A stretch of DNA of 64,000 nt from Nitratiruptor sp. YY09-18 (GCF_016593235.1 NZ_AP023065.1:868001-932000), one strand, 5' to 3'. Positions 37,428-43,682 are shown, counted from the stretch's first letter. Translations and numbers: made by a program. The notes: generated from the letters alone by a model not told the origin.

Positions 37428-38009
37428 ATGAAAAAAGAGCTAAGCACCCGTATCATAGCTGGAAAATACAAAGGAAAAAAAATCAAACTCCCTAGCAAAG
37501 AGGTGACCCGTAGCTCCAAAAACATGCTGCGAGAATCGCTTTTTAATATTTTACAGTTTGATATAATCGATAAAAACTTTGTAGAAGTATTTGGTGGTAG
37601 TGGAAGCGTTGGACTTGAGGCTCTCAGTCGTGATGCAAAAAATGTCTACTTTATAGAAAAAAACAAAGACTCCTACGAGGTTCTTAAAAGTAACATAAAA
37701 AGTCTTGATGAAAAGCCTTGCATTGTCCGCTTTGGCGATGCTTTTGAGGCGATTTGGGATGTGATTGAAGAATTGAAGGCAAAAAAAGAGAAAGCCTATT
37801 TCTATTTTGATCCTCCATTTTCGATTAGAGAAGGGTATGAGGATATATATGAAAAGGTAACTGATCTCATTAAAAAAATCCCAAAGGAGGTAGTTGAGTC
37901 AATCATAATAGAGCATATGAGCAATTACGATTTTCCTCAAACTATTGGCAGTTATGAGCTTTACAAAAAGCGCAAATTTGGAAAGAGCACTCTGAGTTTT
38001 TATAGATGA
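37428..38009 (+). CDS. rsmD: 16S rRNA (guanine966-N2)-methyltransferase RsmD-like
   Basis: A 193-residue class I SAM methyltransferase. It starts with the RsmD-typical TRIIAGKYKGKKIKLP, has SKNMLRESLFNIL, the SAM motif VEVFGGSGSVGLEALSRDA and the catalytic FDPPFS (D/NPPY-type). These enzymes methylate G966 of 16S rRNA. ATG 37428 is chosen for the AAAAGGAG seven bases upstream; longer upstream frames are not family-like. The stop overlaps the next start (ATGA). Confidence 0.92.
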   Translation: MKKELSTRIIAGKYKGKKIKLPSKEVTRSSKNMLRESLFNILQFDIIDKNFVEVFGGSGSVGLEALSRDAKNVYFIEKNKDSYEVLKSNIKSLDEKPCIVRFGDAFEAIWDVIEELKAKKEKAYFYFDPPFSIREGYEDIYEKVTDLIKKIPKEVVESIIIEHMSNYDFPQTIGSYELYKKRKFGKSTLSFYR

Positions 38010-38809
38010 AAAAGCCTGTTATTAGTATAGTAATACTATTTTTTATATTTATGCTCACATTTTTTGGTGGGTATTTCTACAAAGTCTCTGCTTATGATCC
38101 AAATGTCCATCAAATACTCCTCCCACCAAGCATAGAGCACCCTTTCGGTACTGATAGACTTGGGCGTGACCTCCTCGCTAGAATCATTGAGGGTGGAAAA
38201 AATTCGCTTATTATTGGAGTAGGGAGTGCGATTATCTCCTCCTTTATCGCACTCATTGCAGGGGTAAGTGCAGGATATTTTCGAGGATGGGTAGATAGAG
38301 GATTTGTAGTAGTGGTTGATCTTTTTTTGACCTTTCCTACCTTTTTCCTCCTCTTGGCTCTTGTAAGCTATATCCAGGCTTCTGCACTGGTACTCATCAT
38401 AGTTATCTCCATCACTGGATGGATGGGCAACGCAAGAATGATGAGGAGTGAGAGCTATGCTATTGCAAAAAAGCCATTTGTCAAGATTTTAAAAATCGCT
38501 CATGCACATTCATATAAAATAATATTAAAATATTTCCTCCCGCTTTTAGCACCTCTTTTTTTCATAGGGTTTACTTTTGGAGTAGGTGGAGCAATTTTGG
38601 CTGAATCTGGGTTAAGTTTTTTAGGTCTTGGGGTGCTTCCTCCACAGATGAGCTGGGGATCGATTTTGAGTGAAGGAAAAGAGGTGATTGATATTGCATG
38701 GTGGGTAAGTTTCTTCCCAGGCCTCATGATTTTTCTCGTTACCTTTAGCCTTATAAATATCAGTGACTATTTACAAAATGTCACAAACAAAAAAGAGAAG
38801 ATGCTATGA
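38006..38809 (+). CDS. DppC/OppC-type ABC transporter permease (orphan)
   Basis: A 267-residue inner-membrane permease with about six helices. It has the DppC-family features HPFGTDRLGRDLLARIIEGGKNSL near residue 46, a BPD_transp_1 domain, the EAA-like loop (ARMMRSESYAIAKKPFVKIL) and AESGLSFLGLGVLPPQMSWGSIL. Peptide or nickel import is usual for the family, but no substrate-binding protein, DppB partner or ATPase gene is adjacent, so partners must be elsewhere. Overlaps with rsmD and the following small gene show cotranscription. Confidence 0.85.
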   Translation: MKKPVISIVILFFIFMLTFFGGYFYKVSAYDPNVHQILLPPSIEHPFGTDRLGRDLLARIIEGGKNSLIIGVGSAIISSFIALIAGVSAGYFRGWVDRGFVVVVDLFLTFPTFFLLLALVSYIQASALVLIIVISITGWMGNARMMRSESYAIAKKPFVKILKIAHAHSYKIILKYFLPLLAPLFFIGFTFGVGGAILAESGLSFLGLGVLPPQMSWGSILSEGKEVIDIAWWVSFFPGLMIFLVTFSLINISDYLQNVTNKKEKML

Positions 38810-39056: not shown

Positions 39057-39422
39057 ATGTTTAAACAGATCAAATCAGCAATTATCTGGACATATATCTA
39101 TCGATTTCGTTCTCTTTTGATCAGATTGATTATATCTTTGTTACTCATAGGTTTTATTGAATTTATATATCGTGATATCATAGAGTATCTTCAGCTATCA
39201 AAAAAGCTGGAATATCTTTTTTATGTAATAGTAATCAAATGGACTTTGATTATATTAATTATAGTCTATTTTTTATATAAACTAAAAAACTTTGTAAAAA
39301 ATATATCAAAAAAAAACGATAATAAAGAAATAAAAAAATTACAATTTATACACAAAAAAATGTCAAAAAAAGAGATACGTACTATGGCACAAAAAATCAT
39401 TGAACAAAAAGTAAGAAAATGA
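39057..39422 (+). CDS. Two-helix membrane protein with lysine-rich tail
   Basis: A 121-residue product with two transmembrane helices (about 22-42 and 58-82) and a cytoplasmic, very lysine-rich C-terminus (about 85-121). No family is recognised. AGGATGAAGT precedes the ATG. The stop overlaps the start of the outer-membrane receptor-like gene (ATGA), which links it to the TonB-like/YfiR-like/GGDEF-EAL cassette. The base composition becomes clearly more A/T-rich from here to about 43.7 kb. A membrane accessory of that cassette is possible. Confidence 0.55.
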   Translation: MFKQIKSAIIWTYIYRFRSLLIRLIISLLLIGFIEFIYRDIIEYLQLSKKLEYLFYVIVIKWTLIILIIVYFLYKLKNFVKNISKKNDNKEIKKLQFIHKKMSKKEIRTMAQKIIEQKVRK

Positions 39423-41323
39423 AAAAGAAAATCATAGCAGGAGTCTTATGCTTACTCTGTGTATATGCTGATCAAACAAATCTTGATATGCTTTTGGGAA
39501 GTCTTCAACAAGCTGAGGATCTTTCCAAAAAAACTATACAAGAGAGTGCGGGATATGTCATAACTTATACTAGAGAAGATCTAGATAGAATGCATATCAA
39601 ATCTCTTAAAGAGATTTTAGAGAGACTTCCATTTATAAGATACAACGAAGATGCCAATGGTTTGACAGATCTATTTTATGAACCTTTCCAGCCTACTAAA
39701 TATGGTCAGATTAAACTTTATATTGATGATAAAGAGACCTCGGATGCAATCTTTGGTAACAGTCTGCAAGCTTTTTCTGAAATGGATATCTCCTTTATAG
39801 ACCATATTGAAATATATTTAGGTGCTGTCTCTTTTACACTCGGAACAGAACCTTCTATAACTATTATCAAACTTTATACGAAAGATCCAGCTAGAGAAAA
39901 TAGTGCAATGATAGATATCGGTGGAGGCTCTCGCGGAAAAAAAGATTTCATATATTTAAATGGAAGAGATTTAGGAGATATGAAATATCTTTTTTATGTT
40001 AATCATCGCGATAATCGAAGGAAAAAAATCAAATTCCATAGTACAGAACTTTCTCGTGATAAGAAATTTAATTCAATGTATTTTCTTTTGTATAAAGATA
40101 AATTGCGCTATGAACTTTTTGTCTCTCGCATTGATATCAAACCTTTTACAGCTGGTGCAATTAATCTAGAACCAAAATTGGCCCATATATCAACAAGAAA
40201 TTTCTTTACAGGATTACGCTATGATGATCCAGAAAATGGATGGCATAATTATCTCTATTTTACATATAGCAACAACTGGGCATACGAGAGGGGAAATGGT
40301 ATTTTGGGTGTTCTACCCCAAAATAGGTTTCTCTACCTAAAACCATACAAGTCCCATGATTTTAAAGCTACGAGTACTGTAACAGAAGTTGATATCAAAA
40401 AAAAGTTCCAAATAACAAAAAATTGGAGTCTCTTAACTGGTATTACAGGTAAAGCAAAACATTTTGAATTTTTAAAAAATAGATTCGATAATATTGACTT
40501 TTCCCATCTACCTTATAATCAAGAAAACCTTGTAGCAGGCTATATAGAAAGTTCTTATCTCTTAAATAATAACAATGTGGTTATTTTAGATTTAAAAAAA
40601 GATAAATATTTCGAAAACGGTCCGGTTGATGATTATGATCAAATATTTTTTAGAACCGGTTATATTTATAATTCTCCTACAATTGTTACTAAATTTTTTC
40701 TAGGAAAAACAGATTTAAAACCTTCACCAAAACAGCTTCTTGAATCATTAAATAGTAACAAGCTAAAAAAACAAACATATACTGCATTTGCTTGGGAACT
40801 ACAAAAAAAAGATAAAAAGCAAAAATTTTCTATACTTTATACTTGGATGCAAATTGAAAATCTTATTATTCGAGATATTGATACCTTTAAACTTATCAAT
40901 GATACTAATAATTTAATATATAATACTCTAGACATTCGTTATTGTTACAAATTTGATTTAGACAATAAAATGGAAATAGAAGGATTTATTGTTAAACCAA
41001 ATCGACAGACTAATCCATCATCAAGAAATCTTTATGGTGCTCATATTATGTCGTATAACAAATGGAAAAATTTTAATTTTTTTAACTCTTTAGTATATAG
41101 GAGATGGACAAAAGATCAAGGGTCTGGGTTTGATTACAGCTTTACTGTCAATTACCGACTAAGCGATAAACTGTCGTTTTATTTCAAAGGACTAAATATA
41201 TTTGGTTCTGCGATAAAAACTAACTATTATGGATACGATATGGTCAAATCACAAATTATCAAACTTTCTGATGTAGATGTAATAGACAGAGAGTTTTTGG
41301 TAGGAATGGAGTATCAATTTTGA
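39419..41323 (+). CDS. TonB-dependent-receptor-like outer-membrane protein
   Basis: A 634-residue protein with signal peptide MKKKIIAGVLCLLCVYA, a plug-like domain (about 45-160) with YVITYTREDLDRMHIKSLKEIL and IDHIEIYLGAVSFTLG, then a long beta-strand-rich barrel region with alternating aromatic residues and a terminal phenylalanine (GMEYQF), as expected for outer-membrane barrels. The plug lacks the usual glycine-rich RGFS-type signature, so this is a divergent member. It is followed at once by a YfiR-like protein and a GGDEF-EAL protein, so sensing at the cell surface rather than simple uptake is plausible (inference). Confidence 0.72.
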   Translation: MKKKIIAGVLCLLCVYADQTNLDMLLGSLQQAEDLSKKTIQESAGYVITYTREDLDRMHIKSLKEILERLPFIRYNEDANGLTDLFYEPFQPTKYGQIKLYIDDKETSDAIFGNSLQAFSEMDISFIDHIEIYLGAVSFTLGTEPSITIIKLYTKDPARENSAMIDIGGGSRGKKDFIYLNGRDLGDMKYLFYVNHRDNRRKKIKFHSTELSRDKKFNSMYFLLYKDKLRYELFVSRIDIKPFTAGAINLEPKLAHISTRNFFTGLRYDDPENGWHNYLYFTYSNNWAYERGNGILGVLPQNRFLYLKPYKSHDFKATSTVTEVDIKKKFQITKNWSLLTGITGKAKHFEFLKNRFDNIDFSHLPYNQENLVAGYIESSYLLNNNNVVILDLKKDKYFENGPVDDYDQIFFRTGYIYNSPTIVTKFFLGKTDLKPSPKQLLESLNSNKLKKQTYTAFAWELQKKDKKQKFSILYTWMQIENLIIRDIDTFKLINDTNNLIYNTLDIRYCYKFDLDNKMEIEGFIVKPNRQTNPSSRNLYGAHIMSYNKWKNFNFFNSLVYRRWTKDQGSGFDYSFTVNYRLSDKLSFYFKGLNIFGSAIKTNYYGYDMVKSQIIKLSDVDVIDREFLVGMEYQF

Positions 41324-41748
41324 AAAAGATAACTCTATTTTTCATTTCTGTTATTTTCGTTGTAGCAGCAAGCAATGCAGATCTTATCAAAGCGAGTCTT
41401 TTTTCCTTAATAGTAGAACTTTTGAATCGAGACAACCCTTATGTACAGATCTATATCAATTCAAAAGAGTATCAAAATATTCCAAAATATATCAAAAAAT
41501 TTAAATTTACTAATAATTGTGTAAATGCTGATATTATTTTTGTCGATTCATTGTCACTATTACAAAAAGAGTGTATCTACGATCATAAAATTTTCGTGAC
41601 AAGTTATTACGATTTTGTTCACAACAAGGATAAAGTCATAGGTGCATTTTTTTGGCAAAAAGGTAGACCAACTATTATTTTCAACAAAAAAATGCTCGAA
41701 TATTTTGGTGTAAAATTGCCACCAAAGTATAATAAATATATTGATTAA
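41320..41748 (+). CDS. YfiR-like (DUF4154-like) periplasmic protein
   Basis: A 142-residue protein with signal peptide MKKITLFFISVIFVVAASNA and a mature domain containing NNCVNADIIFVDS, KIFVTSYYDF and GRPTIIFNKKMLEYFG. The arrangement (small exported protein, C..ADIIF, late IIF.N..) recalls YfiR/DUF4154, a periplasmic regulator of diguanylate cyclases. The start is TTG inside the receptor stop (TTGA), with GGAG eight bases upstream. Two cysteines (NNC and KEC) could form a disulfide as in YfiR. The family call is tentative. Confidence 0.55.
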   Translation: MKKITLFFISVIFVVAASNADLIKASLFSLIVELLNRDNPYVQIYINSKEYQNIPKYIKKFKFTNNCVNADIIFVDSLSLLQKECIYDHKIFVTSYYDFVHNKDKVIGAFFWQKGRPTIIFNKKMLEYFGVKLPPKYNKYID

Positions 41749-41750
41749 AC

Positions 41751-43682
41751 ATGCGATTTATAGGGATAAAAAAATATATTTACTTTCTCTTTTTGATCCT
41801 TATAATGTTTTTGCTAACTGTCTTTATTTATATTAAATTTGATAATGTGATAAAAATCACATCTAGTGAATTCAAAACTCTAAAAATTCATGAAACAAAA
41901 CACAATGCACTTTCTATATCACACCTTCTTCGCACCTATATCGATCCAACAAAAAACATTTTACAAATTTTAAAAAATAATGAGAGTCTGCAAAAAAAAC
42001 TCAATAATATTCTCGCCAGTTTTATCAATGATGAGAATAGATACGTCTATATTATATATCAAGATAATTATCATAATTATCGATATCTTGCTGATGGTTC
42101 ACTTAATCCTGAAGATAGAGGTTTTTTTGGACAGAAATTTTTTCCTCTCCAAGAAGAAAAATGGCATCGAGCATTCAAATCCAATAAACCTACCATTTTT
42201 ACCCAAAATAAAATTAACAACCTATGGATAACAATGCTATATCCTTTAAATATTTTCAAAGGAGTTAAAAGTTTTTTAGTAATCGATCTTTCTACAAGCG
42301 CATATAAAAATATAAAGAACGTACTTTATCAATTGAGAAATTTCCTCAAATATCTTCTTTATTTCTTTATTGGAATCTTTATATTATTAATTTTACTTTA
42401 TGCTTTTTTATACACAGAGTATCGCCGAACGTTTGTTGATGCTTTAACTGGGGTATATAATCGAAACTATCTCAAACACATAGAAAAAATTATAGATCTC
42501 TCACAGTACACCTTGGCAATGATTGATCTGGATAATTTCAAGGCTATTAACGATAATTATGGTCATACAATAGGTGATGAAGCAATAAAAAAAGTAGCCA
42601 AAAATATAGCAGCAAATATTCGTCAAGACGATATTTTGATTAGATATGGTGGAGATGAGTTTTTGTTGTTTGCTAAAAAGGGAAGAGATATGAAAAATTT
42701 CTACAACAGAATCTATGATATCATCAATAATACCATCATCACTATTCCAGATGCTACACAGTTAAAGACAGGATGTTCTATGGGGGTTAATCTCTTGCCA
42801 GATAGGGATAATACTATCATAGAGGCTATAAAAAAAGCTGATATTAAGCTTTATCACGCAAAAAAATTAGGAAAAAATAGAGTAGAATACAGAGATCAAG
42901 CAGATAAAAATAAAAAAATTTTGGAATTTGACAAGATTAATCATTTAATCCATCAAAGGAATGTGATACTATACTTTCAACCAATCATTAATATGAAAAC
43001 AAAAAAAATAGAAAAATATGAAGCTCTTGCAAGACTTTATGATGGAAAGCATATATATTATCCTAATCAATTTCTTGGTACAATTTTTCAAACCAATACA
43101 TATCGTGAATTTTCAAAAATCATAATCCAGCAAGCATTTGAAATTATTAAAAATTATCAAATATCTATTAGTGTCAATTTTAATAAATCTGATTTTATCG
43201 ATGACGCATACTATGATTCAATTAAAGAGATTATTGAAGAAAATCAAAAATATAGAGAGTTGTTTATATTAGAACTCTTAGAAAACGAGGAGCTTAAAGT
43301 TGATGATGAGAAGATATTAAAAAGAATAAAATATTTTCAAAATTTGGGATGTAAAATTGCTTTAGATGATTTTGGAAGTGGATATTCAAATTTTAACTAT
43401 CTATTGATACTAGAACCTGACATAGTAAAAATAGATGGCTCTCTTATATCTCAGATACAACAAAGTCCAAATGCCAAAAAAATAGTCCAAAGTATCATAT
43501 ATTTCACTAAATATATGGGAATTGAAACAATCGCTGAATTTATTGAAAATGAAGATATATTCAATATAGTAAAAAATTTAGGGATAGATTATGGACAAGG
43601 CTATTTTATAGGAAAACCCTGTCAAAAACTACAAAGAGAGCCTTTTAAGATCTTCGAGTGTATCGACACCAATGCTGCGTGA
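41751..43682 (+). CDS. Membrane GGDEF-EAL c-di-GMP signalling protein
   Basis: A 643-residue protein with TM1 (about 8-29), a periplasmic sensor domain (about 30-195), TM2 (about 200-223), a GGDEF domain (about 228-390) and an EAL domain (about 400-635). The active site RYGGDEF (about 299-305) is intact and preceded by the RxxD inhibitory site (RQDD five residues before GGDEF). The EAL domain keeps YEALARL (near 424), NFNKSDF, LELLENEE, DDFGSGYSNF, the VKIDGSLI lysine and AEFIENE, so both synthase and hydrolase activities are possible. Its last 54 bases overlap the convergent kdsB. No clear ribosome binding site is seen; coupling to the upstream gene two bases away is likely. Confidence 0.9.
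   Translation: MRFIGIKKYIYFLFLILIMFLLTVFIYIKFDNVIKITSSEFKTLKIHETKHNALSISHLLRTYIDPTKNILQILKNNESLQKKLNNILASFINDENRYVYIIYQDNYHNYRYLADGSLNPEDRGFFGQKFFPLQEEKWHRAFKSNKPTIFTQNKINNLWITMLYPLNIFKGVKSFLVIDLSTSAYKNIKNVLYQLRNFLKYLLYFFIGIFILLILLYAFLYTEYRRTFVDALTGVYNRNYLKHIEKIIDLSQYTLAMIDLDNFKAINDNYGHTIGDEAIKKVAKNIAANIRQDDILIRYGGDEFLLFAKKGRDMKNFYNRIYDIINNTIITIPDATQLKTGCSMGVNLLPDRDNTIIEAIKKADIKLYHAKKLGKNRVEYRDQADKNKKILEFDKINHLIHQRNVILYFQPIINMKTKKIEKYEALARLYDGKHIYYPNQFLGTIFQTNTYREFSKIIIQQAFEIIKNYQISISVNFNKSDFIDDAYYDSIKEIIEENQKYRELFILELLENEELKVDDEKILKRIKYFQNLGCKIALDDFGSGYSNFNYLLILEPDIVKIDGSLISQIQQSPNAKKIVQSIIYFTKYMGIETIAEFIENEDIFNIVKNLGIDYGQGYFIGKPCQKLQREPFKIFECIDTNAA

Follow-up and report, generated by a model that had tools for sequence, protein, structure and literature searches.

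Layout and spread of the TBR-YRL-GE unit

A stretch of 64,000 nucleotides from Nitratiruptor sp. YY09-18 (GCF_016593235.1, NZ_AP023065.1:868001-932000), corresponding to positions 868001-932000 of contig 1 in a 1.76-Mb genome and called here the window, carries a block of four genes on the plus strand (39057-43682, counted within the window) that a preliminary description had viewed as a relay from the cell surface to cyclic di-GMP (c-di-GMP). The genes were labelled MEM, TBR, YRL and GE. TBR (39419-41323, 634 residues) codes for a TonB-receptor-like outer-membrane protein with plug and barrel, YRL (41320-41748, 142 residues, TTG start) for a small periplasmic protein with a predicted YfiR fold, and GE (41751-43682, 643 residues) for a predicted inner-membrane GGDEF-EAL enzyme. 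The input half of GE (41751-42410) contains two transmembrane helices flanking what is modelled as a single periplasmic PDC/Cache-type sensor domain, and its output half (42411-43682) contains GGDEF and EAL domains, that is, a predicted c-di-GMP cyclase and phosphodiesterase. The block opens with MEM (39057-39422, 121 residues, two predicted transmembrane helices), and the junctions MEM/TBR, TBR/YRL and YRL/GE measure -4, -4 and +2 bp. The four open reading frames and their tight junctions are present as first described, but the conserved unit is formed by only three genes, TBR, YRL and GE. We judge that this unit is a genuine c-di-GMP module spanning the envelope, a variation on YfiBNR and VpvABC with a receptor-type barrel.

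Relatives of YRL were found by single-sequence search in 102 of 299 genomes of the order, belonging to 26 of its 81 genera, and by profile search in 86 of 397 genomes of the phylum, and a close-relative scan of genome contigs returned one locus. When the neighbourhoods were read at 61 loci (60 relatives and the window), TBR was located directly upstream of YRL in 60, mostly with a short overlap. In the 299 genomes, 115 of the 125 YRL genes were directly followed by a sensor gene and, conversely, 115 of the 128 matches to the sensor domain were directly preceded by YRL in the same orientation, with a spacing of 14-262 bp between match ends; several of the uncoupled YRL or sensor cases were weak matches (E above 1e-11) or lay near contig ends. 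The recurrent co-occurrence that had been proposed as a check of the relay is, therefore, very strong. At one locus (L068) the sensor gene was placed upstream of TBR. At another (L041:2139-5878), TBR is duplicated in tandem ahead of a single YRL gene and a single gene for a sensor enzyme.

The genes around the unit vary by lineage and, therefore, the unit behaves as a cassette; the same genus also holds it in another chromosomal setting (e.g. L070, L071, L072). The co-inheritance distance correlations among the parts reached 0.82-0.89. A plasmid collection searched with TBR and three YRL queries yielded one Massilia receptor and no YRL homologue. On that plasmid, from Massilia sp. H6 (L092:5872-10558), a TonB receptor, a 313-residue protein that by eye resembles a full-length binding protein, and a histidine kinase are encoded in a row; this trio might represent a third variant of the theme.

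The encoded proteins and the surroundings of the block

The receptor-like barrel with a divergent plug that had been read in TBR was borne out, since the Plug domain scored 28.7 bits, above the Pfam cut-off, and the family profile matched BtuB over profile positions 45-603, covering plug and barrel. The Plug match was found in 32 of 37 TBR members and the barrel model match in 4, and TBR counts as a divergent relative of the TonB receptors. When the N-termini of 58 TBR relatives were aligned, visual inspection revealed no TonB box (such boxes are short and degenerate) but a shared, conserved DLSxxTKxExAG stretch; three other receptors of the host genome do show a TonB box on inspection. The DLSxxTKxExAG stretch may be a periplasmic docking segment. 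A common N-terminal motif for all YfiR-associated receptors was also considered and set aside as anecdotal, the pattern matching just 32 of 63 members of the TBR family. TonB and ExbD are encoded elsewhere in the host genome, in three copies each, and therefore TonB-driven transport is possible in principle.

YRL has a signal peptide, as judged by inspection, and its AF2 model, built from 61 sequences, reached a mean predicted local distance difference test (pLDDT) score of 94. In a structural re-alignment of this model the top eight entries were all YfiR (Z 9.5-10.5), the best row being 4xjy_D with 3.4 Å over 125 residues, and the Foldseek probability against YfiR was 0.98-1.0. They were followed by the type I binding proteins 3LFT and 3LKV (Z 9.5 and 9.3; root mean square deviation 6.4 and 5.5), which have been reported as neighbours of YfiR too (PMC4655355). 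When only the Foldseek E-value was considered, a small substrate-binding protein of Rhodothermus came first, just ahead of the YfiR entries. At the level of sequence, YRL had no curated family match, searches of PDB and Pfam with its profile gave nothing credible, and the DUF4154 (PF13689) hidden Markov model (HMM), applied with the Pfam cut-off of 24.9 bits, matched neither YRL, nor the host genome, nor any of the 61 YRL members. A direct hhalign comparison of the YRL profile with DUF4154 gave a low probability (30-33%), although the alignment kept the register and its score of 27.7 exceeded the 18.1 of the best of 60 column shuffles, reversed controls being also clearly lower. Because the model matches YfiR and the HMM does not match, YRL is classified, on its predicted structure, as a YfiR-fold protein that is not a DUF4154 member, so that the expected YfiR-type fold was found and the expected family membership was not. 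The most conserved part of YRL runs from a GAFFWQKGRPxIxF hairpin through the C-terminal helices and corresponds, by element order, to the strand-7/alpha3-alpha4 face of YfiR, i.e. its proposed YfiN-binding surface (PMC4655355).

As stated in the preliminary description, the catalytic and regulatory motifs of GE are intact: the GGDEF and EAL domains scored 115 and 191 bits, the GGDEF, RxxD I-site, EALAR and DDFGSG motifs are present, and the other metal- and substrate-binding residues of the EAL domain seem to be in place on direct reading of the protein. GE is thus predicted to make and break c-di-GMP. Its N-terminal 215 residues constitute a separate domain family, to which the 128 matches mentioned above belong. 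The AF2 model of this sensor (pLDDT 95) aligned with the WalK sensor (Z 12.6, 2.8 Å over 141 residues), which identifies it, at the level of the model, as a single PDC/Cache-type domain.

The outputs behind the sensor were GGDEF-EAL in the majority of cases, GGDEF alone in proteins of 380-390 residues, and histidine kinases at seven loci (L057, L066, L067, L074, L083, L086, L088), several of which encode a response-regulator/PAS/EAL protein next after the kinase. At L051, L069 and L087 the output lacks a standard GGDEF motif and retains an intact EAL domain, and at L135 TBR-YRL is accompanied by another kind of histidine kinase, with a periplasmic part weakly like LapD_MoxY_N. The c-di-GMP output originally assigned to the system is thus predicted for GE but not for all its relatives. 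A conserved input combined with exchanged outputs is the pattern that a sensing module should give.

The YfiR-like partner is also exchanged. In two genomes, G293 (L133) and G269 (L134), the operon combines a sensor belonging to this family with a canonical TonB receptor and a genuine DUF4154 protein (126.7 bits), which replaces YRL; the L134 sensor is fused to PAS and histidine kinase domains. DUF4154 proteins were present in 17 of 249 genomes of the phylum, and at 24 of 25 loci (L093-L117) a TonB receptor was encoded less than 1.5 kb away and/or the DUF4154 protein was a neighbour of, or part of a fusion with, a GGDEF/EAL or histidine-kinase protein. At L101, L102 and L115 the DUF4154 domain lies in long open frames resembling fusions. 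The host genome itself has a second operon, outside the window and about 170 kb from the block (L139:6412-10993; G000:C1:736911-741492), in which a receptor, a 182-residue protein matching a divergent DUF4154 group (58.8 bits) and a HAMP-GGDEF-EAL protein take the same three roles as TBR, YRL and GE. A TonB gene adjoins this operon in convergent orientation.

Around the conserved unit, MEM had no curated family match and its relatives were confined to L032, L033, L035 and L042, of the same genus and in the same setting, which together with the window make 5 of the 61 loci; we regard it as a local accessory. Two genes ahead of the block stands a gene for an OppC/NikC-like ABC permease (38006-38809), flanked by an rsmD-like methyltransferase gene and an open reading frame of 80 residues, with no further importer subunits visible next to it. 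The initial statement that no iron-uptake or ABC importer genes are linked must be qualified by this local flanking gene, and remains correct for the conserved unit. The A/T richness noted at the outset was confirmed, with a GC content of 28-29% in the block versus 35-40% in its surroundings. In 52 of 56 loci the unit has a higher AT content than its own flanks, by a mean of 3.8 percentage points (about 9 points in the window), and recent horizontal transfer is therefore not favoured as the sole cause. Promoter and terminator scans gave no signal above chance level.

A proposed relay and its alternatives

In Gram-negative cells, few routes are known by which outside cues cross two membranes to reach c-di-GMP enzymes, and most GGDEF/EAL proteins lack a known input. 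We consider it likely that TBR, YRL and GE constitute one trans-envelope signalling chain acting on c-di-GMP, a reading that builds on the observed gene coupling, the fold of YRL in its predicted model, the PDC sensor, the swapping of outputs and the replacement of YRL. In such a chain TBR would detect, or admit, an extracellular cue at the outer membrane, and YRL would relay the state of TBR across the periplasm, either because the periplasmic face of TBR holds and releases YRL, as YfiB does with YfiR, or because YRL takes up a small ligand admitted by TBR and acts as a carrier, as proposed for VpvABC. YRL would then dock on the PDC/Cache domain of GE, shifting the GGDEF/EAL balance and, with it, the c-di-GMP level. 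Since the conserved face of YRL is the one corresponding to the YfiN-binding face and YRL is single-lobed, we lean slightly towards docking and release over ligand carriage. The contacts among TBR, YRL and GE, a ligand, the sign of the regulation and an actual change in cyclase or phosphodiesterase activity are what we infer from this arrangement; the sensing of the "surface" and the direction of control by the unit are likewise presumed.

Several observations weigh against a single chain of this kind, in addition to the missing DUF4154 match of YRL. TBR is absent from one of the 61 loci (L032, genome G127), and three others (L037, L043, L049) hold TBR-YRL pairs without an adjoining sensor gene. 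Moreover, mirror-tree correlations were high for all pairs and did not single out the YRL-sensor pair. At L032:5565-8407 no TBR is found between MEM and YRL, and both YRL and GE are intact, which may reflect a true loss of the gene or a gap in the assembly. The genomes with orphan pairs each hold a full unit elsewhere. The orphans may provide a second input into one enzyme.

An alternative is that TBR works as a TonB-driven importer with YRL as its binding protein, GE monitoring the loading of YRL and sensing being a by-product. The TonB and ExbD genes of the host agree with this explanation, as do the proximity of the YRL fold to the lobes of type I binding proteins, the Massilia plasmid receptor followed by a binding-protein-like protein and a histidine kinase, and the description of VpvB as a periplasmic binding protein and of VpvA as importing the signal (PMC12456836). 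However, TBR shows no TonB box of the sort visible in the three other receptors of the genome, no importer is conserved with the unit, and YRL has a single lobe, and we regard this explanation as rather unlikely. The fixed link to the sensor, the swapped outputs and the lack of a recognisable TonB box likewise favour the preliminary preference for sensing over plain siderophore transport.

If what the unit sensed were the envelope or redox state instead of an outside ligand, YRL would repress GE in response to redox change or stress, and TBR would anchor YRL at the outer membrane. The Cys pair of YRL covaries among the 61 members (both present in 37, neither in 22, one in 2), a pattern expected of a periplasmic disulfide, and, going by the titles of PDB entries 4YNA and 4YN7, both an oxidised and a non-oxidised YfiR have been solved. 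Yet both Cys residues are missing in a third of the family, so that redox sensing would not be general, and a 630-residue plug-barrel protein would be a costly anchor, which renders this proposal improbable. Finally, three unrelated functions could have come to lie together by chance or simply through history, and any linked block that is inherited jointly would also show high distance correlations, but the coupling holds over 26 genera with differing flanks and with exchange of the outputs and even of the YfiR-like protein, and we give this possibility hardly any credence.

Beyond the signalling chain proposed for TBR, YRL and GE, a broader generalisation can be offered tentatively, and we would not yet bet on it: YfiR-fold proteins might be general periplasmic adapters connecting plug-barrel receptors to inner-membrane cyclases, phosphodiesterases or histidine kinases, with YfiBNR as a specialised offshoot of a wider system whose receptors signal through a periplasmic docking segment instead of a TonB box.

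Comparison with known systems

With TonB-dependent receptors such as BtuB and Cir, and with FecA-type receptors, TBR shares the plug and the barrel, and a signalling use is probable. FecA signals with FecR; in contrast, the unit includes no anti-sigma factor, TBR has no recognisable TonB box, and TBR is paired with a YfiR-fold protein and a predicted c-di-GMP enzyme.

The logic of the unit had been compared initially with YfiBNR, the TpbB system of Pseudomonas aeruginosa (PMC4655355). The comparison is sustained by the predicted YfiR-type fold of the periplasmic protein and by the combination of an outer-membrane partner with an inner-membrane enzyme carrying one periplasmic PAS/PDC-type domain and GGDEF. 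On the other hand, YfiB is an OmpA-like lipoprotein whereas TBR is a plug-barrel protein with no OmpA domain, YfiN has HAMP and no EAL whereas GE has EAL, YRL falls outside DUF4154 by HMM, and the gene order is not the same.

By analogy, the closest published gene order appears to be that of VpvABC rather than YfiBNR. VpvABC of Vibrio cholerae comprises a porin, a periplasmic binding protein and a membrane cyclase, and vpvAB, widely conserved without vpvC, has been proposed as a sensing unit (PMC12456836). The order and roles, compared by description, coincide (outer-membrane protein, periplasmic protein, membrane GGDEF enzyme); they differ in that VpvC is described as a diguanylate cyclase and GE combines GGDEF with EAL, that VpvA is called a porin, and that the hosts belong to different phyla. 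Beyond VpvABC, the literature consulted, mainly open-access and without preprints, contained no system of TonB receptor, YfiR and cyclase, and none corresponding to the Campylobacterota unit. In about a third of the searched genomes of the order, this unit amounts to a fixed receptor, adapter and sensor input with swappable outputs. It predicts partners for the YRL family of periplasmic proteins, which has no Pfam entry, and it offers a structural hypothesis for VpvABC, so far described merely as porin, binding protein and cyclase.

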